64,000 bases of DNA. It comes from Leisingera sp. ANG-Vp (GTDB taxonomy: Bacteria; Pseudomonadota; Alphaproteobacteria; Rhodobacterales; Rhodobacteraceae). The stretch is taken from positions 11,530-75,529 of the forward strand of contig NZ_JWLD01000023.1 of the NCBI RefSeq assembly GCF_000813725.1. Direction: 5' to 3'. The translations under genes were made by a program, and so were the position numbers. Positions 11,056 through 22,626 of this stretch are shown one piece after another. The notes under the pieces are model-generated. The model had not been told where the DNA came from. It worked only from the letters and a program-made list of their open reading frames with translations, and did no database searches. Each line of letters opens with the position of its first letter. The stretch's first letter is position 1.

Positions 11056-12282
11056 ATGACCAGGCGGTACAGCTTTCCCGAGGGGCACTGGGACTGGCCC
11101 GTAAAGCTGACTCATCGTCATGCAGTGCGTGCGGGCGATATGGTCTTTACTGGCGGTCAGGTGGATCTGGATTCCCTGGGAACCGTACGCAACATCGGCG
11201 ATCTGGATGCCCAAGTGCGTAATTCGATGGCCTATACGCAGGATCTGCTGGCTGACCTTGGCGTCGGATTCACCGATCTGGTGCGGCTGGTGGTCTATTA
11301 CGTTGGCGGCGCGGATGACGAGGCCCGGCTGTTGGACCTGCTGGCCGGCATCATCGGGCCTGAGGTGAAACCGGTTGTCAATCTGATCAGCCTGCCCGAA
11401 CTCTGCTACCCTGGCATGCTGTGCGAAATCGAAGGTGTCGCCATGCGTGCTCCCGATGGCAGCGCATTGCCCCGCCGCAATTACCATCTCGATGACCTGC
11501 CGTTTTTGCCTCAGGCCTTCTCGCATGCGGTGGCATGCGGCGGCATGATCTTTACCGGAGACATGAGCGCCCGCTGCGCTGACGGATCTGTTGCCCATCC
11601 CGGAGATATCGTGGCGCAGACCCGGTTGATGATGGAGCGCCTCTCCCGCGCGCTTCAGGCTGCAGGAGCGGAGATGCAGGATGTGGTCAAGGTCAACACA
11701 TTCTACCTAGGCGACGGCACGGCGGAAGACTGGGAAATCTCTGCCCGCATCCGCGCCGGTTACTTCCGGGACCCCGGTCCGGCGCCCACAGGCATTCCGG
11801 TGCCGTCCTTTCCCCATGACGGGCTGACCACCCGCATCGCCGCCACCGCCTGCGCTCCCGGCGCGCGCCGTATCCGGCACGTCTGGCCCGGCGGGCATTG
11901 GAACTGGACCGCCGCGCTGCCTTACAAACACGGTGTCGCCTCCGGCCAGCTTATCCATGTGGGCGGCCAGGTGGCGCTGGATGCGCAGGCCAAGGTGCTG
12001 GAACCCGGCGACATGGTCGCCCAAACCCGTATCGCCATGGACAATGCGGCCCGCGTGCTGGAGGAATTCGGCGCCGCCCTGGACGATGTGGTCAAGGTCA
12101 CCACCTTCTATCAGGGCAATGCCTCGGCCGAAGCGCTGCACGAAAACCTGCTGATCCGCTCCAATTCCTACACCGCGCCCGGCCCTGCAACGACCGGTAT
12201 CCCGGTGCCCAATCTGGTCTACGAAGACATGGTGATCGAGATAGAGGTGATCGCGATGCTCGAGAACCATACGGAAGCTTGA
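11056..12282 (+). CDS. Three-domain RidA (YjgF/YER057c/UK114) family protein
   Basis: 408 residues made of three consecutive RidA-like domains: about 1-133, 137-270 and 275-405. Domains 1 and 3 both open with a PxGHWxW motif and DALTHRHAV/YKHGV-type start, then FTGGQVDLD or HVGGQVALD. RidA proteins are normally 130-residue trimers that hydrolyse 2-aminoacrylate and other enamine/imine intermediates. The catalytic arginine (Arg105 in E. coli RidA, in PARSC) is replaced in every domain: VVNLI, PTGIP and TTGIP. So it is not a standard deaminase; this fits the less known Rid4-7 groups. Start supported by GGAGG upstream. It may serve the imine-forming oxidase/reductase genes downstream. Confidence 0.85.
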   Translation: MTRRYSFPEGHWDWPVKLTHRHAVRAGDMVFTGGQVDLDSLGTVRNIGDLDAQVRNSMAYTQDLLADLGVGFTDLVRLVVYYVGGADDEARLLDLLAGIIGPEVKPVVNLISLPELCYPGMLCEIEGVAMRAPDGSALPRRNYHLDDLPFLPQAFSHAVACGGMIFTGDMSARCADGSVAHPGDIVAQTRLMMERLSRALQAAGAEMQDVVKVNTFYLGDGTAEDWEISARIRAGYFRDPGPAPTGIPVPSFPHDGLTTRIAATACAPGARRIRHVWPGGHWNWTAALPYKHGVASGQLIHVGGQVALDAQAKVLEPGDMVAQTRIAMDNAARVLEEFGAALDDVVKVTTFYQGNASAEALHENLLIRSNSYTAPGPATTGIPVPNLVYEDMVIEIEVIAMLENHTEA

Positions 12283-12830: not shown

Positions 12831-14069
12831 CTAAAACCTGTCCGGGCTGAAGGCACGGATTTCCTCGCTCAGCGGCCGCCCTGCAATGACGTCAGCAATG
12901 ATCCGTCCGGTGGTGGCTCCCAGCGTCAACCCGAGCTGACCATGACCAGTAGCAAGAGACACATTGGCCAGATTGACAGTTCTCCCGATTATTGGACGGG
13001 TGTCAGGGGTGAAGGGGCGGCGGCCCATGCGGCGGCTGTGATGGCGATCCTGCAGCCCTGGCAGAACGCGATGTGCGCGTTTGACCAGAACATCGGCCCG
13101 GCGCCATTTCGGGGCGGCGGCGAGGCTTGCAAACTCCACTGTCCCGGCAACCGCCAGCTCATTTTCATAAGGCGTGACGCCGAAACCGCCCGCCGGGTAG
13201 AAAACCGTGTGTTTCAGATCCAAGCCAGGATCCTGCAGGCCGGTCGAATACCCCATGACGCCTTCCAAACGAAGCTTGATTCCCAGATTTTTAGCGAGAG
13301 GTTTCGAGTGGGTGCCTGCCGCAATCACCACTTCATCGGCGGGCAGCAGCTGGCCATCAGCGGTTTCGACACCGGTCACCCGCGCACCGTCGCGCTGAAA
13401 ACCTTTGCACGCGAGTGGCAAAACCGTGCCCCCGCGTTGCACAAAGGCTTGCATCAGCTTTTTCACCAGCCGTTTGGGGTCGCTGACAAAGCTCCAATCT
13501 CGCAGAACCGCAGCGAATTTGAAATCGGTGGCAATGGCCGGTTCCATCTCATGGGCTTCCCGCCCGGAAATGTCGTCGATTGTGCAGCCGAGTTCACGCG
13601 CCAGATCAAAGGCGGCGCCCATGACCGCTTTGTCGCGCTCATCATCAAACAGCTTGATCACCGGGCGCTCCACCAACAGCTCCGGGGTTTCGATGTCTGC
13701 AAGCTGTGCTTTGAAGTCGGCGGTGGCGGCGAAGGTCAGCCGTGCCAGATCGGCAGCAATCGCCCGCATCCGGGAAGGCATTGAGTTGGCAGTGAAGCGG
13801 GCAAACCAGGGCAGCAGCCCCAGCGCAGACGCCGGACGCAGTGACAAGGGTGCCTCAGGGTCCAGCAGCCAGCCCGGCACTTTCATCAGCATGCCCGGCT
13901 GCGACAGCGGCACGATCTCTCCCACTGCAATGCAACCGCAAGAGGCCCAGCTGGCGCCTTCGCCTATCGGGCCGGGTTCCAGCACGGTGACGCTGTGGCC
14001 CTCGGCCTGCAGCGCCAGCGCACAGGAGATGCCGACAACACCGCCACCCGCAATCACGACCCGTTTCAT
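12831..14069 (-). CDS. DadA-like FAD-dependent amino acid dehydrogenase
   Basis: 412-residue flavoprotein of the DAO/DadA family, which oxidises D-amino (or cyclic/N-methyl) acids to imino acids and passes electrons to the respiratory chain. The FAD-binding motif is at the very N-terminus (VVIAGGGVVGISCALAL, GxGxxG followed by VLEPGP). A second DadA landmark, GEIVPLSQPGML, follows near residue 50, and FTPDTRPIIGRT with LATGHGQLGLTLG closes the FAD site near the C-terminus. Its ATG overlaps the stop of the upstream Ldh-family gene (ATGA), so they are coupled. Together the pair could invert an amino acid: oxidation to the imine, then reduction to the L-form. Substrate not known. Confidence 0.85.
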   Translation of the reverse strand: MKRVVIAGGGVVGISCALALQAEGHSVTVLEPGPIGEGASWASCGCIAVGEIVPLSQPGMLMKVPGWLLDPEAPLSLRPASALGLLPWFARFTANSMPSRMRAIAADLARLTFAATADFKAQLADIETPELLVERPVIKLFDDERDKAVMGAAFDLARELGCTIDDISGREAHEMEPAIATDFKFAAVLRDWSFVSDPKRLVKKLMQAFVQRGGTVLPLACKGFQRDGARVTGVETADGQLLPADEVVIAAGTHSKPLAKNLGIKLRLEGVMGYSTGLQDPGLDLKHTVFYPAGGFGVTPYENELAVAGTVEFASLAAAPKWRRADVLVKRAHRVLPGLQDRHHSRRMGRRPFTPDTRPIIGRTVNLANVSLATGHGQLGLTLGATTGRIIADVIAGRPLSEEIRAFSPDRF

Positions 14070-15088
14070 GCAGGCTGAGCCAGCTGGTTCAGCTGCGCGA
14101 GCAGCTCGGTGCTGACCTCAACGCCGCCGGCTTCTGCCGACGCGCGTTTCTTCAGCCGCCCGTCGCCGGGCACCCGGGCGGCGCCATTGCCCTCGATCTC
14201 GGCGCAAATGCGGGTGATGTAGTCGCCAAAGGCAGCATTCCCGAAGCGGCTTGGGTCAATGGCAATCAGGGTGGCGCCACCCTTGATGTTGAGGGCACCG
14301 AAGGACTCCCGCTCCTGATTGTCGACGGACAGGGTGCCGCCGGCCAGCGCCGCGCCCAGCACCTCGATCATAAAGGCAATCGCGGCGCCCTTGTGCTCGC
14401 CGAAGGGCAGCAGGCTGCGGGTTTCCAGAATGGCGTTCGGATCAGTGCTGGCATTGCCCTCGGGGTCCAGGCCGGCCGGGCGCGGCAAATCGTGGCCTTC
14501 AGCTGCCGCCATGCGGATATCCATCAGCGCCACCATCGAGGCCGCCTGGTCCCAGACCACAGGTTCAGCGCCCTCGCGCGGGCAGGCAAAGGACATCGGG
14601 TTGGTGCCGAACACCGGCTTGACGCCGCCCTGAGGCACCACCATCGACAGCGAGTTGATCACTGCCAGCGCCACCAGCCCCGCCTCGGCCAGCGGCTCGG
14701 TGTCAAAGCGCAGGCCGCCCAGGTGGTGGCAATTGGAACAGGTGAAGGCGGCAATGCCGTTCTCGCGAGCCAGGGCAATCAGCTCATCGCGCGCGGCGGC
14801 AGCAGCGATCTGGTAGTAACCGTTGTCCGCATCGCCGCGCAGCACGCCCGGTGCGATCTTTTCAACCGACGGCGCTGCGGCGCCATTGGCATAGCCCGAG
14901 GTAAAGCTTTGCGCATAGACCGGCAGCATCCGCAGCCCGTGGCTGCGCGGGCCGTCGCGTTCCGAGCAGGTGACGATATCGGCTATTACATCGCTGCCCG
15001 CCTCATCCATACCCGCGGCCACAAGGACAGACTTGGCCAAAGCCCGAACCTCGGCGAGTGAGAGCATTTTTGTCGAAGATGCGGTCAT
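14066..15088 (-). CDS. Ldh-family NAD(P)H oxidoreductase, probable piperideine/pyrroline-2-carboxylate reductase type
   Basis: 340 residues of the malate/L-lactate dehydrogenase 2 family (DpkA/YlbC/allD type), which are not Rossmann enzymes. Landmarks: SERDGPRSHGLRMLP with the conserved SHG near residue 53, the ALAVINSLSMVVPQGG and FGTNPMSFACP segments of the cofactor site, and LLPFGEHKGAAIAFMIEVL near residue 230. Members that sit beside DadA-type oxidases reduce delta-1-piperideine-2-carboxylate or delta-1-pyrroline-2-carboxylate to L-pipecolate or L-proline; that role is inferred from context. An alternative is a (S)-ureidoglycolate or sulfolactate dehydrogenase. Coupled to the DadA-like gene by a four-base overlap. 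Confidence 0.8.
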   Translation of the reverse strand: MTASSTKMLSLAEVRALAKSVLVAAGMDEAGSDVIADIVTCSERDGPRSHGLRMLPVYAQSFTSGYANGAAAPSVEKIAPGVLRGDADNGYYQIAAAAARDELIALARENGIAAFTCSNCHHLGGLRFDTEPLAEAGLVALAVINSLSMVVPQGGVKPVFGTNPMSFACPREGAEPVVWDQAASMVALMDIRMAAAEGHDLPRPAGLDPEGNASTDPNAILETRSLLPFGEHKGAAIAFMIEVLGAALAGGTLSVDNQERESFGALNIKGGATLIAIDPSRFGNAAFGDYITRICAEIEGNGAARVPGDGRLKKRASAEAGGVEVSTELLAQLNQLAQPA

Positions 15089-15121
15089 GGGCTCAAATCC
15101 TGTCCTTGTGTCGGGTCAAAG

Positions 15122-15137
15122 GGGCGCCTTGGCGCCC
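15122..15137. repeat. Short GC palindrome between mttB-like and ldh-like genes
   Basis: GGGCGCC, two bases, GGCGCCC: a seven-pair inverted repeat in the 56-base gap of the operon. It could form a small mRNA hairpin separating expression of the upstream methyltransferase from the downstream oxidoreductases. Confidence 0.35.
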
Positions 15138-15144
15138 GCTCGTG

Positions 15145-16671
15145 TCAGGCTTGGTACAGCGCGCGCTTTTTGGCAACAAATTCATCCAGCTTGCCGCGCT
15201 GATCCTCCGGCATCGGCGGCTGAACGTAGCTGTCCAGCATCCGCCGCGCCTCTTCGCGGCCCACCAGTTCCGCAGTCTTGGCGCCTTCGGCCTCCCACTG
15301 CTCAAAGCTGTCGTTGTTCTGCAGCGGGTTCATATGCATCGGGTTTTCGCGGGTATGATCAGTGCCGAGGAAATGGCCGCCGGGGCCGATCGCCGCGATA
15401 TCGCCCAAGAGCGCATCCAGGTTTTCTTCCTGCAAGCCGCTGAAGAACCGGTGGAAGTTCTCGAGCTGCAGCGTGTCCTGCACCCATTTCGAGTAGCTGA
15501 CCCCCAGCGCGCCTTCCAGAAAACCGGCCGAATGCACGATGTAGTTCGCCCCGCCCAGCAGCACCGGCCACATGGTGTTGGCGGTGTCGAACCCGGCCTG
15601 CATGTCCGGCGATTTCGAGCCGGTCCACATAGTGCAGGTCCGCCAGGGCACGCCGTAAAACCGCGCCATCTGTCCCACCAGCAGATTCATCAGCCCCGGC
15701 TCGGGCGAACCCATCATCGGGGCGCCGGTCTTCATCGAAACGCCCATGATCGCCACCCCCAGGACCATCGGCGCGCCGCGGCGGATGATCTGGCTGTAGG
15801 CCATGCCTGCGAGGCTCTCGGCGATCAGCAGCGCTACACCGCCCTGCGGGCTGGCAGGGGCCGAGGCGCCTGCCAGTACAAAAGGCGACAGCAGGCAGGG
15901 CTGGTTGGCCGACGCATAGACCCGCAAGGACTGCAGCATGGTCTCGTCCCAGACCAGCGGCGTGTTGCAGTTCAAAAGTGCCGCCAGCACCACGTTGCTG
16001 TCGACAAACTCCTCGCCGAAAACGATGCGGACCATCTCCACCGTGTCGCGCGCCGCCTGCTCCGACAAAACCGAGCCCTTGATCGGCTTGTCGGTCAGCG
16101 TCAGCGCCGCATGGACCAGTTCCAGATGGCGCTCCGGCACCGGCACGTCCTGCGGCTCCACCGGCAGGATGCCCGGCACCATCATCGACTGGCTCATCTG
16201 GCTCAGCTTGAAGAAGTTATGCGCATCCTCCAGCACCGAGGGGCGGCGGACGCCGTCCAGGTCATAGACAAAGGGCGCACCATAGGCGTTGGCAAAGACC
16301 GAGTGCCGTTTGCCCACCCGCAGCGAGCGTTCAGGGTTGCGGGCGGCATAGCCCCATTCCGAGGGCACCGAGGAGATCAGATCCATCAGCATATCGCGGC
16401 CGATGCGCACCCGCTCGCCCTGCACATCGGCGCCAGCGCGTTTCCAGTCCGCCAGCGCCACCGGGTCCCGGAATTCTATGCCGGTGGTCTCCAGGATCGT
16501 CATCGCCGCATTGTGGATCTTCTCCACCCCTTCCGGACCCAAGAGGTCAATGGGGCCTACCCGGCGGTTCAGCGCGGGCAGATAGACCGGGGCCGGGTTG
16601 GTGCGGGCTTTGACGCGCGCAGCCCGTCCGCCCCGGGCGCCGCGCGGCGCCCGTGTGTTCAGTTCCGTCAT
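15145..16671 (-). CDS. MttB-family (COG5598) corrinoid-type methyltransferase, non-pyrrolysine
   Basis: 508 residues of the trimethylamine methyltransferase family. True MttB reads through an in-frame UAG as pyrrolysine; this gene has no internal stop, so it belongs to the non-pyrrolysine branch, whose characterised anaerobic members demethylate quaternary amines (glycine betaine MtgB, proline betaine MtpB, carnitine MtcB). Recognisable segments are VEKIHNAAMTILETTGIEF near residue 50 and PMMGSPEPGLMNLLVGQMARF near residue 310. The first 28 residues are basic and disordered. The corrinoid protein and methyl-carrier transferase that such enzymes need are not in the window. It follows the dimethylglycine dehydrogenase-like gene by 26 bases. 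ATG at 16671 preceded by AGGAG. Confidence 0.88.
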   Translation of the reverse strand: MTELNTRAPRGARGGRAARVKARTNPAPVYLPALNRRVGPIDLLGPEGVEKIHNAAMTILETTGIEFRDPVALADWKRAGADVQGERVRIGRDMLMDLISSVPSEWGYAARNPERSLRVGKRHSVFANAYGAPFVYDLDGVRRPSVLEDAHNFFKLSQMSQSMMVPGILPVEPQDVPVPERHLELVHAALTLTDKPIKGSVLSEQAARDTVEMVRIVFGEEFVDSNVVLAALLNCNTPLVWDETMLQSLRVYASANQPCLLSPFVLAGASAPASPQGGVALLIAESLAGMAYSQIIRRGAPMVLGVAIMGVSMKTGAPMMGSPEPGLMNLLVGQMARFYGVPWRTCTMWTGSKSPDMQAGFDTANTMWPVLLGGANYIVHSAGFLEGALGVSYSKWVQDTLQLENFHRFFSGLQEENLDALLGDIAAIGPGGHFLGTDHTRENPMHMNPLQNNDSFEQWEAEGAKTAELVGREEARRMLDSYVQPPMPEDQRGKLDEFVAKKRALYQA

Positions 16672-16697
16672 GTCATGCTCCTGTGGCTAGGCCGGGC

Positions 16698-19127
16698 TCA
16701 GGCCCGGGCCCGTGCGCTGGTTGGGTCGACCGCGCAGATGCCGATCACCTCAGCTTCGCGCATCTCGTTGTGGACCATCACCTGCAGGCGCGTGCCCTCA
16801 GCGGTGAGCTCCTGCGGCACCAGCGCCATCGCGATGTCGTGGTTGCAGTAGTAGGAGAACCCGCCCGACGTCACGCGGCCGACAAGCGTGCCATCCCTGT
16901 AGACGCTCTCATCCGCCAGCACCGAAGTGTCGCAGAACGGCAGCTTCAGGGTAACCAGCGTGTTGTAACCGCCCGCCTCCTTCTGCCGGACCAGCGCATC
17001 GCGGCCGATGAACTCACGTCCTTCCAGCGCCACAAAGCGGTCCAGCCCAGCCTCAAACGGCGTCATGTCCTTGCAGATCTCCCGGTTGATCGCGCGGTAG
17101 GATTTCTCCAGCCGCATCGATTCCAGCGCCTCCAGACCAAAAGGTTTCACACCCGCCTTCAGCAGCTGATCGACCAGATGCCGGTTGTATCCGACCGGGT
17201 GATGCAGCTCCCAGCCCAGCTCGCCGGTGTAGCTGACGCGCAGCAGGTGGACGCCCTTGGCATAGCCCACCTCGCCCATTTGGGCGCTGAGCCAGGGGAA
17301 GGCTTCGTTTGACAGGTCGTTGTCGGTCAGCTGCTGCAGAATCTCACGCGATTTCGGCCCCGCCAGAGCAATCACGCCCACCTGTTCCGAATTATCTTCC
17401 AGGATCACCGAGCCATCATCCGGCAGCAGGCGCGACAGGTAATCCCAGTTGTAGACTTGCCCGTTCGGGGTCGAGACCAGGTAGAAGTCGTTCTCGCCAT
17501 AACGGACGATGGTGTATTCGCCCTCCATGCCGCCCTGCGGGTTCAGCGCCACCGCCAGGGTCATGCGGCCGACCTTGGGCAGCTTGTTGGCCATGATTCC
17601 GTCCAGCCACTTGGCGGCACCCGGGCCGCGCACGGTGAACTTGGTCATCGGCGACATCTCGATAAAGCCGGCCTCCTCGCGGGTCACCCGCACCTCTTCC
17701 TGCACCAGCTCCATGTGGCTGGTGCGGCGGAAGCTGTGCTCAGGGATGGCCTCAGCGGGCGACTTGGCGAACCAGCGCGGGAACTCATAGCCGTTGAATG
17801 TGGTCCAGACCGCGCCCTGCGCCGTCAGCAGATCGTAGGACGGCATCGTCTTCATCGGCCGCGCCGAGGGGAAATCCTCGCCGGGAACATGCGCATCCAT
17901 ATGGGTGCCCCAGGTCTCGCGCACCTTGTCCATAGTCCAGCGCTTGGAGGCATAGTCGCCAAAGCGGCGCGGGTCGATTTCGGACATGTCGATGCCGGGA
18001 TGGCCGTCAACGATCCAGCGTGCCAGCCGCTCGCCCATGGTGCCGCCCCACAGGATGCCGCCGGGCACGCCCTCGGCCAGCCACAGGTTGTCGTGCCCCG
18101 GCGCCGGGCCGCACAGCGGCAGCTCGTCCGGGGTCATCTGGAACGGACCGCGGGTGTTGGCCTTGATGCCGACCTCGCCCAGGGCCGGCACCCGCTCCAG
18201 CGCGCGCTCCCACTGGGTTTCCACCGCCTCGAAATCCTCGGGCAGCAGGTCGGCGCCGAAATCGGCCGGCACCTTGTCCTCGGCAAAGAGCTTGAGGTCC
18301 TTTTCGAACTCGTAAGGGCCGAATTGGAAGCCGCCCACATCCTCGCGCAGATAGGCGCCGTAATCCTCGTCGCGCAGGATCGGGAACTCCGGCAGGCCTT
18401 CGGCGCGGCGCTCTTTCAGCAGCGGCACGGTCTCAGTCGTCCAGTACTGATGCACGATCGGGATGCAAGGCAGGTCCAGGCCGACCCGGCGGGCGTTTTC
18501 ACGGGCATAGTTGCCGGTGGCAAAGATCAGATGCTCGCAGGTGATCTCGCCCTTGCTGGTGGTCACCTTCCAATGGCCGTTGTCCAGCTTCTCATAGGCC
18601 TGCGCCTCGGTGTTCTGATAGACGGTTGCACCCTGATCGCGGGCCAGCTTGGCCAGCCCCATGGTGATGTCGGCCGGGTTCACGTAACCGTCCTGGTCAT
18701 GCAGGATGCCGCCGCGGATGGTCTCGCTCTGCGCCAGCAGCGGGTGGATCTCCTTGATCTCCTCCGGCGTCACCAGGCGGCAAGGCACGCCTGCGGCCTC
18801 AGCAATCGAGATATAGGACTGGAACTCGTCCCAGCGTTTCTGGGTGTTGGCGACCCGCAGCTGGCCGACCTGCCGCAGGCCCACGGAGCTGCCCAGTTTC
18901 TTCTCCACCTCGCCATAGATGCGGATGGTTTCCATCGTCATCTTTGAGATGTTGTGCGAGCGCACGAATGTCACCAGCAGCCCCGCGGCGTGCCAGGTCG
19001 ACCCGGAGGTCAGCGTGGTACGCTCCAGCATCACCGCATCGGTGCAGCCGTGCTGGGTCAGCCCGTAAAGGATCGAGGCTCCGACACAGCCGCCGCCGAC
19101 GACCACCACTTTTGCATGCGACTTCAT
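16698..19127 (-). CDS. Dimethylglycine/sarcosine dehydrogenase-like flavoprotein with GcvT domain
   Basis: 809 residues: N-terminal FAD oxidoreductase (VVVVGGGCVGASILYGL) and, from about residue 430, an aminomethyltransferase (GcvT) domain that passes the released one-carbon unit to tetrahydrofolate. The histidine expected to bind FAD covalently is present in TSGSTWHAAGLL. GcvT landmarks include FTVRGPGAAKWLDGIMANKLP and GELGWELHHPVGY. Enzymes of this type oxidise N-methyl groups of dimethylglycine, sarcosine or N-methylproline. The ATG at 19127 (MKSHAKVV) is chosen over an upstream in-frame start because AGGAG sits ten bases before it and the FAD motif then starts at residue 6. First gene of a four-gene operon. 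Confidence 0.88.
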   Translation of the reverse strand: MKSHAKVVVVGGGCVGASILYGLTQHGCTDAVMLERTTLTSGSTWHAAGLLVTFVRSHNISKMTMETIRIYGEVEKKLGSSVGLRQVGQLRVANTQKRWDEFQSYISIAEAAGVPCRLVTPEEIKEIHPLLAQSETIRGGILHDQDGYVNPADITMGLAKLARDQGATVYQNTEAQAYEKLDNGHWKVTTSKGEITCEHLIFATGNYARENARRVGLDLPCIPIVHQYWTTETVPLLKERRAEGLPEFPILRDEDYGAYLREDVGGFQFGPYEFEKDLKLFAEDKVPADFGADLLPEDFEAVETQWERALERVPALGEVGIKANTRGPFQMTPDELPLCGPAPGHDNLWLAEGVPGGILWGGTMGERLARWIVDGHPGIDMSEIDPRRFGDYASKRWTMDKVRETWGTHMDAHVPGEDFPSARPMKTMPSYDLLTAQGAVWTTFNGYEFPRWFAKSPAEAIPEHSFRRTSHMELVQEEVRVTREEAGFIEMSPMTKFTVRGPGAAKWLDGIMANKLPKVGRMTLAVALNPQGGMEGEYTIVRYGENDFYLVSTPNGQVYNWDYLSRLLPDDGSVILEDNSEQVGVIALAGPKSREILQQLTDNDLSNEAFPWLSAQMGEVGYAKGVHLLRVSYTGELGWELHHPVGYNRHLVDQLLKAGVKPFGLEALESMRLEKSYRAINREICKDMTPFEAGLDRFVALEGREFIGRDALVRQKEAGGYNTLVTLKLPFCDTSVLADESVYRDGTLVGRVTSGGFSYYCNHDIAMALVPQELTAEGTRLQVMVHNEMREAEVIGICAVDPTSARARA

Positions 19128-19356
19128 AGACCAACTCCTGTTTGCGGGTGTCCGGCAGCCTCGGCTGCTGCGGCAGAATTCCTGAATGCCTCCCCTGCCC
19201 GGCACGGATCCAAAGCCGGGGAGTGATGCTGCATTTTGGCGTCATTCGCGCATCCAGCAATTGCAAAAATTTTCATCTTGGCTTAGCTGAATTTGCCCAA
19301 AGGCTCGAAAAGAGACATGCTGCAATCAACATTTCCGGACCAAGGATAAAGCCGCC

Positions 19357-20250
19357 TTGCCCAACCGTCCCTATGACCTGCCCCGGATGAGCTCCCTCGT
19401 CAGCTTCGAAGCCGCCGCCCGAAACTCTAGCTTCAAGCTTGCGGCCACAGAGCTGAACGTTACCCCCGCTGCGGTCAGCCACCAGATCAAGGCGCTCGAG
19501 CGGGAGCTGCAGTGCAGCCTGTTCAACCGCTTTCACCGCGGCGTCGAGTTGACGGAAAGCGGCGCCTATCTGCTGGTCGCTTTGCAAAGGGGATTTGAGG
19601 GGATCAACGACGCATTTGAGCAGCTGCGGGCCCAGCACGGGCGCAGCTCGGTGACCATCCGCTCCAGCACCGCTGTGAGCTCGCTGTGGCTGACGCCGCG
19701 GCTGGCGCATTTCTGGAAAAGCTACGAGCATATCTCGGTGGCACAGATCGTCAGCGATACGGAAAAGGCCGCCGGCGATTGCGATCTCAGCCTGCATTAT
19801 GCGGATATGTCCCGGGACAGCGGCCATTGCAGAGCGTTGTTCAGGGACCGGATCATGGCACTGTGCAGCCCGCGGTTTGCCTCCCGGCACCGGATTTCCA
19901 GCGTCGCAGACATCGCAGAGGTTCCGCTGATCCATCTCGACTCGCTGGAAACCGGCGGCACCGACTGGCAGGTGTGGGCGCAAGCCTTGGGCTATTCAGG
20001 GCCGCTGAAGTCCGCCCATCGCGTCAACAATTATGTCATCGCACTGCAAGCCGCACAGGACGACATGGGGGCCGTGCTCGGCTGGGAGGGATTGACTGCA
20101 GATCTGGTCGCATCCGGCAAGCTGGTCAGACTTCTGCCTGACACAATTTCGGCGCCTCTGGAATTCTATGTCAAACTGCACAACCGGTCATCTGACCGGG
20201 CGCAGCTGGTTTTTGACTGGCTGGCTGGAGGACATCAGGAGATGCGCTAG
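19357..20250 (+). CDS. LysR-family regulator, GcvA-like
   Basis: 297-residue activator with the GcvA-type helix-turn-helix at residues 10-70: LVSFEAAARNSSFKLAATEL, VTPAAVSHQIKALERE, then the C-terminal effector domain. Translation could start at TTG 19357 or ATG 19387; the former keeps the complete N-terminal helix and has AGGA upstream. It is divergent from the dimethylglycine dehydrogenase/mttB operon across 229 bases, the usual arrangement for a LysR protein controlling its neighbour. GcvA of E. coli responds to glycine, so a glycine- or betaine-related signal is plausible here but unproven. Confidence 0.88.
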   Translation: MPNRPYDLPRMSSLVSFEAAARNSSFKLAATELNVTPAAVSHQIKALERELQCSLFNRFHRGVELTESGAYLLVALQRGFEGINDAFEQLRAQHGRSSVTIRSSTAVSSLWLTPRLAHFWKSYEHISVAQIVSDTEKAAGDCDLSLHYADMSRDSGHCRALFRDRIMALCSPRFASRHRISSVADIAEVPLIHLDSLETGGTDWQVWAQALGYSGPLKSAHRVNNYVIALQAAQDDMGAVLGWEGLTADLVASGKLVRLLPDTISAPLEFYVKLHNRSSDRAQLVFDWLAGGHQEMR

Positions 20251-20629: not shown

Positions 20630-21229
20630 CTAGTCGGTCTGACCGGCCATTTCCCGACCTTCGAAAAGCATCTTCATCGCCGCATTGCAGCCCATCGAAG
20701 CTGTCGTGCGTGCATGCTGCAGTAATTCCGTCAGATAAAAGGCCCCGGCGCCGACCACCTGCGCCACACCATGAAAGGGGCCGCCGATAAATGGCCCTGC
20801 TGCTATTTCATTCAGTGCCGACACATTGGTCAGCAACGTATAAGCGATCATTACTATGTTGGACGGATTGTGACGCTCAGCACTGTGAAGATCAGATTGC
20901 GGTCGGATTGTTCATTCTTCGGCGGAAACGCCGCAAATTGCCACTGAACCGCCAGTGAGTGTTCCGAAGCGCCAGCCGCGACCCAGCAGCGCCACCCCGA
21001 TCCGCAAAACGGTACGGGAGGCCAGCTCACCGCCAGCGACGCAGACATTACCTGGCTCCGCAACCAGGAAATGCAGTGCAATACCCAGAAGCAAAGCCAT
21101 CAGCATAGCAGGTGCGCCACAATGTTCGGCCAGGAATTGTGCGGTCAGGGCAATCAGCGCTGAGACCAGCAGCCCTTTCCCATAAACCCCAATCAAATTT
21201 CGCGCCTTGAAGATCGCCTGCTGTGCCAT
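20630..21229 (-). pseudogene. YeiH/UPF0324-family putative sulfate exporter, decayed
   Basis: Three consecutive minus-strand pieces match one membrane protein family in order but in different frames. Piece 1 (21229-20912): VSALIALTAQFLAEHCGAPA, LLLGIALHFL, ASRTVLRIGVALLG, then directly RGWRFGTLTGGSVAICGVSA. About 40 residues that should separate the last two are deleted. Piece 2 (around 20890): PKNEQSDRNLIFTVLSVT. Piece 3 (20851-20730): MIAYTLLTN, then AAGPFIGGPFHGVAQVVGAG, the DVAQVVGAG motif of the family. The remaining roughly 30 residues, ending at 20630, do not match the family. YeiH-type proteins are often found with sulfonate catabolism as sulfate exporters. Not functional as read. Confidence 0.8.
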
Positions 21230-21324
21230 TGCAACCTCATGAAAATGCGTCTCTTCCTATCCTGGCAGGACGGGCAGAGACGCCGTACGCAGCGGAAGGG
21301 GCAGCGGCAGAAGCAAAGCCTGGG

Positions 21325-21777
21325 TCAGACCACCGGCGTGATCGTCATCTTTGCACTGATCGAGTTGGCAACGAAGCAGTAGCGATGCGCGCGCTCGTGC
21401 ATCTCCTCCACCTTGGCAGGGGTGACGTCAAAGCCGGTATCAAAAGTGACCCGCGGCGACAGTTTCAGCTCGGTCACCGCCATCATGCCCTTTTCGGTTT
21501 TGCCCAGGGCAGCTTCAGCGTGATCGGCATAGGTGGCAACCGGCCAGCCGGCCTTGGCTGCCAGCGCCAGGAACGTCATCATGTGGCAGCTCGACAGCGA
21601 GGCGGCCAGCGCTTGCTCGGGATTGGTGGAGTCCGGATCACCGCCCCAGTCCGGCGCTGCATCTCCCGGCAGCGTGAATTGCGAATTGTAAAGGATCTCA
21701 TGGGCCTTATCGACCTGCCCCTCGATCAAATGGGGAGTGTTGCGGAACCAGGACACGTCAACAGAGAGTTCAGACAT
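21325..21777 (-). CDS. OsmC-family peroxiredoxin-like protein
   Basis: 150 residues of the OsmC/Ohr superfamily, thiol peroxidases for organic hydroperoxides. One conserved cysteine is in PEQALAASLSSCHMMTFLAL (the SSC motif), the second in ERAHRYCFVANSI near the C-terminus. Spacing and sequence fit the OsmC-like branch common in alphaproteobacteria rather than classical Ohr. ATG 21777 (MSELSVDV) is preferred, with AGGTGAGG just upstream; three more in-frame codons upstream are optional. It lies 48 bases after the enoyl-CoA hydratase gene on the same strand and may be its operon partner, protecting against peroxides made by flavin-dependent oxidation. Confidence 0.9.
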   Translation of the reverse strand: MSELSVDVSWFRNTPHLIEGQVDKAHEILYNSQFTLPGDAAPDWGGDPDSTNPEQALAASLSSCHMMTFLALAAKAGWPVATYADHAEAALGKTEKGMMAVTELKLSPRVTFDTGFDVTPAKVEEMHERAHRYCFVANSISAKMTITPVV

Positions 21778-21825
21778 CAGCCTCACCTCTTAGCATTAAT
21801 CAGATTGCGGTTTTTGCTTGAGGGC

Positions 21826-22626
21826 TCAGGGCGCCGGCCACTCTGGAGCACGCTTTTCGATAAAGGCCTGTATGCCTTCCTTGGCATCGTCGATCATCAT
21901 GTTTTCGACCATCACGCCAGTGGCATAATCATAAGCCTTTTCCAGGCTCATCTGGGCCTGGGCGTAAAACGCCTCCTTGCCGATCTTCAGTGTGCGCCCC
22001 GATTTGCCGGCGATCAGAGCGGCAAGCTTTCCGGCTTCTGCCTGCAACTGCTCCATCGGTACGATATCGCTGATCAGGCCCCAATTGAGGGCGGTTTCCG
22101 CATCGGTCATCTGCCCGGTGAGCAGCATTTTCATGGCCTGTTTGCGCCCGACATTGCGCGACAGCGCCACCATTGGGGTGGAGCAAAACAGGCCGATATT
22201 CACCCCCGGCGTGGCAAATCGGGTGCCTTCTGCGGCAATCGCCAGATCACAGCTGGCCACCAGCTGGCACCCGGCCGCTGTCGCAGTGCCATGCACCGCA
22301 GCAATCACCGGCTTGGGGCATGTCACAATGGCCTGCATCGTGGCCGAGCAAGTTTCCATGGTCACGCGGTAAAACGCCCGCCCCCCGTCCGCGTTTTCGC
22401 GCGCTGCGGTCATCTCCTTGAGGTCATGGCCCGCGCAGAAGGCAGGGCCATTGGCGGCCAGCACGATCACCTTGATGTCTGCGCGCGCCCCCCAGTCTTC
22501 AAACGCATTTTGCAGCGCGTGCAGCATGTCCAGCGACAGGCTGTTGCGGGCCGCCGGACGGTTCAGAATTAAAGTGGCAATGCCGTCTGCAGCGGAAACC
22601 TGCAAAATCCGGGGATCAGAGGTCAT
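21826..22626 (-). CDS. Enoyl-CoA hydratase/isomerase family protein (ECHDC3-like)
   Basis: 266-residue crotonase-fold enzyme that would hydrate enoyl-CoA or act on a related thioester. The first oxyanion-hole segment is AFCAGHDLKEM near residue 64 and the second is AVHGTATAAGCQLVASCDL near residue 108. The GHDLKEM form is typical of the ECHDC3 group. At the usual catalytic positions of rat crotonase (two glutamates) this group differs, so the exact reaction is uncertain. The gene begins four bases after the acyl-CoA dehydrogenase stop on the same strand, so the two would act as consecutive steps of beta-oxidation. Confidence 0.88.
   Translation of the reverse strand: MTSDPRILQVSAADGIATLILNRPAARNSLSLDMLHALQNAFEDWGARADIKVIVLAANGPAFCAGHDLKEMTAARENADGGRAFYRVTMETCSATMQAIVTCPKPVIAAVHGTATAAGCQLVASCDLAIAAEGTRFATPGVNIGLFCSTPMVALSRNVGRKQAMKMLLTGQMTDAETALNWGLISDIVPMEQLQAEAGKLAALIAGKSGRTLKIGKEAFYAQAQMSLEKAYDYATGVMVENMMIDDAKEGIQAFIEKRAPEWPAP

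Follow-up and report, generated by a model that had tools for sequence, protein, structure and literature searches.

We analysed a 64,000-nucleotide stretch of the genome of Leisingera sp. ANG-Vp (the window; contig NZ_JWLD01000023.1, positions 11,530 to 75,529 of the forward strand), in which five neighbouring genes between window positions 12831 and 20250 form a compact group that we call the cassette. Four of them lie on the reverse strand and are read in the order DMGDH-like gene (16698..19205, −), MttB-like gene (15145..16671, −), Ldh_2/DpkA-like gene (14066..15088, −) and DadA-like gene (12831..14069, −), with intergenic gaps of 26, 56 and −4 bases, the start of the DadA-like gene overlapping the end of the Ldh gene by 4 bases. 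A LysR regulator gene (19357..20250, +) is divergent from the other four. An earlier account made from the letters alone (the sequence-only reading) had described this four-gene operon, its divergent LysR gene and the same gaps, and open reading frames (ORFs) and Pfam matches agreed with it in every position. The codon-position GC content of all five ORFs was higher at the third position (GC3 0.68-0.85) than at the second (GC2 0.44-0.51), as in real genes, in a window of 61% GC. A promoter and terminator scan returned 0 promoter-like sites, and 4 terminator-like sites against 5.5 expected.

The DMGDH-like protein is a FAD/GcvT fusion with Pfam matches to DAO, FAO_M, GCV_T and GCV_T_C, i.e., the complete family architecture of FAD domain, FAO_M, GcvT folate domain and GcvT C-terminal barrel, and its closest solved structure was dimethylglycine dehydrogenase 4pab (E 1e-150). 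We propose that its substrate is a cyclic N-methyl amino acid instead of dimethylglycine, making it a putative N-methylproline demethylase feeding tetrahydrofolate. Since its homologues at other loci have a median length of 817 amino acids against 835 here, the true start is probably the ATG at 19127 and not the GTG at 19205. The MttB-like protein matched PF06253 at full length (Pfam MTTB, model positions 2-497 of 500, E 1.1e-167); its gene is an open frame of 508 codons without an in-frame amber codon, and it is thus a non-pyrrolysine member of the family, which we propose to be a proline betaine:corrinoid methyltransferase. For the Ldh protein (Pfam Ldh_2, 1.2e-85), the closest solved structure was the delta1-piperideine-2-carboxylate reductase DpkA (1wtj, E 3e-71; the next match was at 2e-33), and the proposed activity is that of a pyrroline-2-carboxylate reductase giving L-proline. 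The DadA-like protein is a FAD dehydrogenase (Pfam DAO, 2.7e-53) and a candidate D-proline dehydrogenase. The regulator, GcvA/DsdC-like, carries the LysR helix-turn-helix and substrate domains; GcvA was its best NCBIfam model, with 203 bits, under the model cut-off of 288.

Taken together, we read the locus as a mobile cassette under LysR control for the breakdown of proline betaine (stachydrine) and possibly of its 4-hydroxy form, and give this reading a probability of roughly 0.65. In the proposed pathway, an HpbD enzyme encoded elsewhere in the genome (contig C107) would interconvert L- and D-proline betaine. MttB would then transfer one methyl group from the quaternary nitrogen to the cob(I)alamin of a corrinoid protein, MtgC, giving N-methylproline; MtgC would be the single stand-alone corrinoid protein of the genome, shared with a split methionine synthase, while MtgD would hand the methyl group to tetrahydrofolate and RamA and a DUF1638 protein would keep the cobalt reduced. 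The DMGDH-like enzyme would oxidise the remaining N-methyl group and pass it to tetrahydrofolate, leaving D-proline, which the DadA-like enzyme would oxidise to pyrroline-2-carboxylate and the Ldh/DpkA-like enzyme would finally reduce to L-proline. The reactions, their order and stereochemistry, the contact between MttB and MtgC and the inducer are all predicted from gene families and gene context, and the host was assumed to be aerobic. Stepwise demethylation and a D-to-L return through DadA and a DpkA-like reductase had both been suggested by the sequence-only reading, and the gene context speaks for them.

To judge how constant the cassette is, a scan with one genome per species was used, which gave 35 distinct loci; 34 homologues (70-98% identity) were kept and one locus (L101, 32%) was dropped. 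Counts out of 35 therefore denote the 34 homologous loci plus the window; all were chosen by MttB, so that MttB is present in 35/35 by construction, gene calls at the homologous loci are crude, with a possible error of one or two in the locus counts, and loci L062-L064, L066 and L135 stand outside all counts. The homologous loci came from Leisingera, Ruegeria, Shimia, Thalassobius, Aliiroseovarius, Cohaesibacter and others. DMGDH was found in 34 of the 35, and the sole locus lacking it (L093) begins at its own contig end. Ldh was present in 28, DadA in 23 and LysR at >55% identity in 29; 7 loci gave weaker matches to LysR, in part at other positions. The flanks were unrelated, and beyond the five genes each gene family was common to at most 5 loci; with a shared five-gene set and no other family in more than 5 loci, the gene grouping is not due to chance. 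Among 149 genomes of the order, the window-type MttB occurred in three (the window's genome, G091 and G072), and two plasmids, one of which was read, also carried it. Such a scattered distribution fits with horizontal transfer of the cassette.

The substrate was approached through the neighbours of these loci. An HpbD-like gene of the enolase superfamily was found in 5/35 cassette loci (L072, L077, L084, L091 and L092); the one of the five that was tested had 4e8g/4izg/4j1o (E 1e-181) and 2pmq/4h2h (2e-168) as its closest solved structures, which we take to be HpbD of Paracoccus denitrificans or Pelagibaca bermudensis, some with proline betaine or hydroxyproline betaine bound. A BCCT transporter gene was present in three loci (L076, L084 and L091), and a second enolase-superfamily type in four. 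The window's genome carries HpbD in trans on contig C107 (81% identity), with another MttB gene at 0.7 kb, genes for DHDPS, aldehyde dehydrogenase and DAO beside it and, at a distance of about 10 kb, a betaine ABC transporter, a context that points to a probable hydroxyproline-betaine island. The surrounding region (C107:17000-54000, loci L012 and L143) is plasmid-like, with ParA, RepB and RP-C genes, a Rieske gene and two enolase-superfamily genes including HpbD.

HpbD was also searched for independently of MttB (threshold E <= 1e-100). It was detected in 11 of the 149 genomes of the order, and a comparison of positions placed MttB at 44-747 bases from HpbD in 9 of these 11. In a class-wide sample of 385 genomes, HpbD at the same threshold appeared only in the window's genome and in G455. 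At one locus (L096), the cassette's DMGDH-MttB pair adjoins a whole hydroxyproline cluster holding a second MttB. Plasmid pB of Cereibacter sphaeroides 2.4.1 (L137), a species that uses proline betaine, carries the arrangement MttB-HpbD-SDR-SDR / DAO-ALDH-DHDPS-GntR / betaine ABC transporter, with the MttB-family gene directly before HpbD (69% identity). In G076, HpbD lies about 4 kb from cassette-type Ldh (84%) and DMGDH (86%) genes, and MttB is absent both from the interval and from its surroundings; a decayed HpbD was suspected there from a counted stop and dropped, as the ORF is of full length. With HpbD, BCCT and hydroxyproline genes recurring beside window-type or sister MttB genes, the substrate class named by the sequence-only reading, a betaine of a cyclic imino acid with proline betaine foremost, is supported by gene context.

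Several observations weigh against the proline-betaine cassette. The DadA-like protein scored 185 bits, not reaching the NCBIfam DadA cut-off of 383, and can be called DadA-like only; its closest solved structure was glycine oxidase. No transporter gene was found among the five genes of the cassette. DadA was missing from 12/35 loci and Ldh from 7/35, from which we conclude that the D-to-L branch is either optional or supplied in trans. HpbD was not found in the window, and 30 of the 35 loci were without it in cis in flanks of at most 9 kb; G072 has the cassette and gave no HpbD match at 1e-100 genome-wide. Conversely, HpbD occurred without MttB in the 18-19 kb around it in G076 and G055, and outside the order G455 had no MttB within 18.5 kb of HpbD. 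Finally, the window's genome gave 11 matches to the Rieske catalytic domain, one of them on C107 in the HpbD region, and the HpbD-MttB clusters L119 and L120 each hold one Rieske gene. Given this co-occurrence, MttB may not necessarily be the sole betaine demethylase.

The relationship of the window MttB to its relatives was examined in two trees, of 66 rows (careful method) and 69 rows (quick method), whose rows were mostly selected for their similarity to the window MttB and thus sample the superfamily in part. Identical rows (99 reduced to 84) and 17 close homologues of the window MttB were left out of both trees and seven distant rows out of the 66-row tree; the most divergent paralogue of the same genome (C74) is in neither. 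The window clade was sister to a clade of HpbD-linked MttB genes with support of 100/99, and the two stood apart from the other same-genome MttB paralogues included in the tree. One Mesorhizobium plasmid sequence lay on a long branch within the window clade. Of DHDPS, aldehyde dehydrogenase and DAO, two or all three (>=45% identity) were present at 17/19 sister-clade loci, the misses being L117 and L124; L123 and L137 appear to come from a single species, and the 19 are not fully independent. The same search gave 0/16 for the loci of other MttB paralogues in the window's genome, several of which are cut by contig ends. In the available text of PMC4113996, the hydroxyproline route consists of DAAO, DHDPS and aldehyde dehydrogenase, and MLD2/Ldh_2 proteins are pyrroline-2-carboxylate reductases. 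On the basis of these assignments and of the hydroxyproline genes at 17/19 sister loci, the sister clade looks like a hydroxyproline-betaine form whose pathway would end in alpha-ketoglutarate, and the window cassette like a proline-betaine form ending in L-proline. Some sister-clade clusters hold a Rieske gene (L119, and a protein of the same cluster in L120), others a P450 gene. The P450 gene at L121:10719-11909 lies between the HpbD and SDR genes of its MttB cluster, a protein of the same cluster is found in L125, and it is a possible second N-demethylase.

The two clades also differ at one position of interest. Trp349 of the window MttB aligned with the X (pyrrolysine) of the solved archaeal MttB chain 7xcl, and the activating residue of MttB is given as Pyl334 in the accessible part of PMC9842639. 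In the thinned set, this position was Trp in 19/19 window-clade rows and Leu in 33/33 sister-clade rows, which makes it, by our inference, a candidate specificity residue.

The sequence-only reading had noted that the MttB gene lacks a corrinoid partner. This holds for the operon but not for the genome (5.15 Mb), where a search for MttC-like genes, as that reading had suggested, found 18 PF06253 MttB genes and one stand-alone PF02607 corrinoid protein of 232 amino acids with two B12-binding domains and the motif GDIHDIGKN. A dedicated MttC was consequently rejected, as the genome holds this one PF02607 protein only. DUF1638 directly follows the gene, which is preceded at a distance of about 1.8 kb, across a radical SAM gene, by that of an S-methyl_trans protein (L026), our candidate for MtgE. 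The candidates for MtgD (a pterin-binding protein with Pterin_bind and CdhD matches, L134) and RamA (a RACo_C_ter protein) are both on contig C56; all three were assigned by family. Neither of the two ORFs flanking the MtgD candidate matched a Pfam family at 1e-5, and no metF paralogue was recognised beside it. Another pterin-binding protein, on C58, was dropped as MtgD and taken as folP, its neighbours being FolB and phosphoglucomutase.

Across the 149 genomes of the order, MttB was present in 140 (MttB counts per genome are lower bounds, with up to 9 candidates scored in each), and none had more than 3 PF02607 matches. A PF02607 protein besides full-length MetH was found in 139/140 genomes with MttB and in 0/9 without it (Fisher 1e-13), with five of the nine MttB-free genomes sharing one genus code (g7) and thus not independent; frame lengths refer to the best matches, and the remainder, with E-values weaker than any listed MetH-type match, were taken as the short type. 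The only PF02607 match was in a frame of >=900 amino acids, i.e., full MetH, in all nine MttB-free genomes and in 1/140 of those with MttB (G039). Within g7 (six genomes), the sole member with MttB (G048) was also the sole member with the short corrinoid protein. In Ruegeria pomeroyi, mutation of mtgC or mtgD abolishes methionine synthesis as well as the ability to grow on glycine betaine, according to the available text of PMC12478193 (Mausz et al. 2025). With one stand-alone corrinoid protein in the genome and the sharing of MtgC published for R. pomeroyi, the corrinoid gap is no puzzle: what the sequence-only reading had thought odd ceases to be so in an order sample where 140 of 149 genomes have MttB and none exceeds 3 PF02607 matches. 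Its suggestion of a partner elsewhere agrees with what was found, and its other suggestion of an acceptor other than a corrinoid was not supported. The cassette's partner is probably this one corrinoid protein, which would be common to many MttB enzymes. We further suggest, as a tentative model that we rate slightly below an even chance, that it acts as a hub: one corrinoid protein, needed for methionine synthesis too, would accept methyl groups for about 18 MttB enzymes, each with its own downstream enzymes (for 9 of 18 a nearby FAD/GcvT enzyme, which would deliver the second methyl group into the same folate pool) and many on mobile cassettes, and the window cassette would be a proline-betaine plug-in running via D-intermediates to L-proline without an oxygenase.

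The pairing of MttB with DMGDH-type enzymes goes beyond the cassette. The window's genome has 23 FAO_M genes, and 9/18 MttB genes have one of them no more than 5 kb away, against 0.8 expected (P 2e-8 in a uniform model that ignores contig ends). By simple logic, MttB would take the methyl group off the quaternary nitrogen and the FAD/GcvT enzyme would take the next one. This proximity, together with the tight DMGDH-MttB pairing in 34/35 loci and an operon without MttC, would also suit a corrinoid-free MttB that passes the methyl group straight to tetrahydrofolate bound by the GcvT portion of the neighbouring DMGDH-like enzyme. We consider this highly improbable: an additional PF02607 protein accompanies MttB almost without exception in the order sample and is found in no genome lacking it, and the sister clade has a DMGDH-like gene in only 3/19 loci, one of which is the cassette's own in L096. 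Moreover, plasmid IV of Paracoccus aminovorans (L139) has an MttB of another superfamily clade beside an MtgC-like B12-binding protein, DUF1638, two MetF-type genes, a methyl-tetrahydrofolate:cobalamin methyltransferase and an ASKHA protein. The characterised members of the MttB superfamily methylate free corrinoid or a corrinoid protein, as stated in the accessible text of PMC8604678, which also counts against a corrinoid-free route.

The Rieske genes noted above allow another explanation: demethylation of the betaine would be the work of a Rieske oxygenase, for example that on C107 near the betaine ABC transporter and hydroxyproline genes, as reported for the Hpb pathway; MttB would have some other substrate, and the role of the cassette would be limited to finishing the product. 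The 11 catalytic-domain matches and the Rieske genes in L119 and L120 lend it some weight, but none of the five cassette genes is a Rieske gene and HpbD has MttB close beside it in 9/11 genomes of the order (the Rieske scan covered part of the neighbours), so that we regard it as quite doubtful. A cassette for another N-methylated amino acid, whether cyclic or open, for instance hydroxyproline betaine, pipecolate betaine or an N-methyl amino acid, with Ldh as piperideine-2-carboxylate reductase or N-methyl-amino-acid dehydrogenase, is rather unlikely in our view. DpkA has N-methyl-amino-acid dehydrogenase activity, Ldh has a piperideine/pyrroline-2-carboxylate reductase as its closest solved match, the sister clade is accompanied by hydroxyproline genes, and cassette loci without HpbD and DadA exist; against this, HpbD-like genes and BCCT transporters recur beside the cassette, and the DHDPS and aldehyde dehydrogenase of the hydroxyproline route are not among its genes.

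The proline-betaine cassette was also compared with the closest known systems. The Mtg system of R. pomeroyi (MtgB/MtgC/MtgD/MtgE) resembles it in having a PF06253 methyltransferase in a roseobacter and one MtgC also serving methionine synthesis, and its MtgD, RamA and DUF1638 set is close to the candidates in the window's genome; it differs in its substrate, glycine betaine, and in the up to seven pfam06253 ORFs mentioned, compared with 18 here and another MttB clade in a proline-type gene set, the two being likened by description and not by sequence (PMC12478193, as far as its available text goes). MtpB of Eubacterium limosum, working with MtqC and MtqA, is likewise a non-pyrrolysine MttB member and demethylates proline betaine, and one corrinoid protein is common to several MttB members there; unlike our case, this is an anaerobic acetogen for which the accessible part of PMC8604678 describes no DMGDH, DadA, Ldh or HpbD step, and this likeness is again one of description and not of sequence. 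The Ldh protein shares its family and its closest solved match with the MLD2/Ldh_2 pyrroline-2-carboxylate reductases such as DpkA (available text of PMC4113996), and the activity of the window copy is deduced from this resemblance. The Hpb pathway of Pelagibaca bermudensis and Paracoccus denitrificans, said to go back to work by Zhao in 2013 and Kumar in 2014, reportedly comprises the epimerase/racemase HpbD and a Rieske-type demethylation. HpbD, D-configured intermediates, the DAO/DHDPS/aldehyde dehydrogenase route for hydroxyproline and betaine transporters are common to both, whereas the five window genes include no Rieske demethylase, so that the cassette is not of the Rieske form, and MttB with DMGDH is followed by a DadA and Ldh return to L-proline. 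Thus MttB acting on proline betaine (in an anaerobe), a shared MtgC and HpbD pathways in Rhodobacterales are known already, and the combination is apparently new: no prior description of it was recognised in the literature searched, which covered few subscription papers, so that an earlier account is possible. The literature search also found no paper that treats MttB together with hydroxyproline.

Algae, plants and marine animals use proline betaine and hydroxyproline betaine as osmolytes. If the proposed pathway is true, roseobacters would degrade these betaines by cobalamin-dependent methyl transfer, alongside or in place of Rieske oxygenases, and osmolyte turnover would be tied to vitamin B12. 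The analysis yields substrate predictions for two MttB clades, a candidate specificity residue (Trp or Leu where pyrrolysine would stand) and, for MttB-rich genomes, a hub model that can be tested.

Two further ORFs of the window were considered. The gene at 11056-12282 (+) encodes a 408-amino-acid protein with three L-PSP/RidA matches and is convergent with the DadA-like gene; as a RidA-type imine deaminase beside DadA it was weighed as an operon member and rejected, being in no cluster common to the 35 loci. A large ORF at 21223-22572 (+) was dropped, as it has no Pfam match and overlaps better-supported genes of the opposite strand. Elsewhere in the genome (C86:5500-24500, L021), an MttB paralogue, an Ldh_2 gene and three HpbD-related genes (32-36% identity) lie within 6 kb of one another and are perhaps another cyclic betaine cluster.

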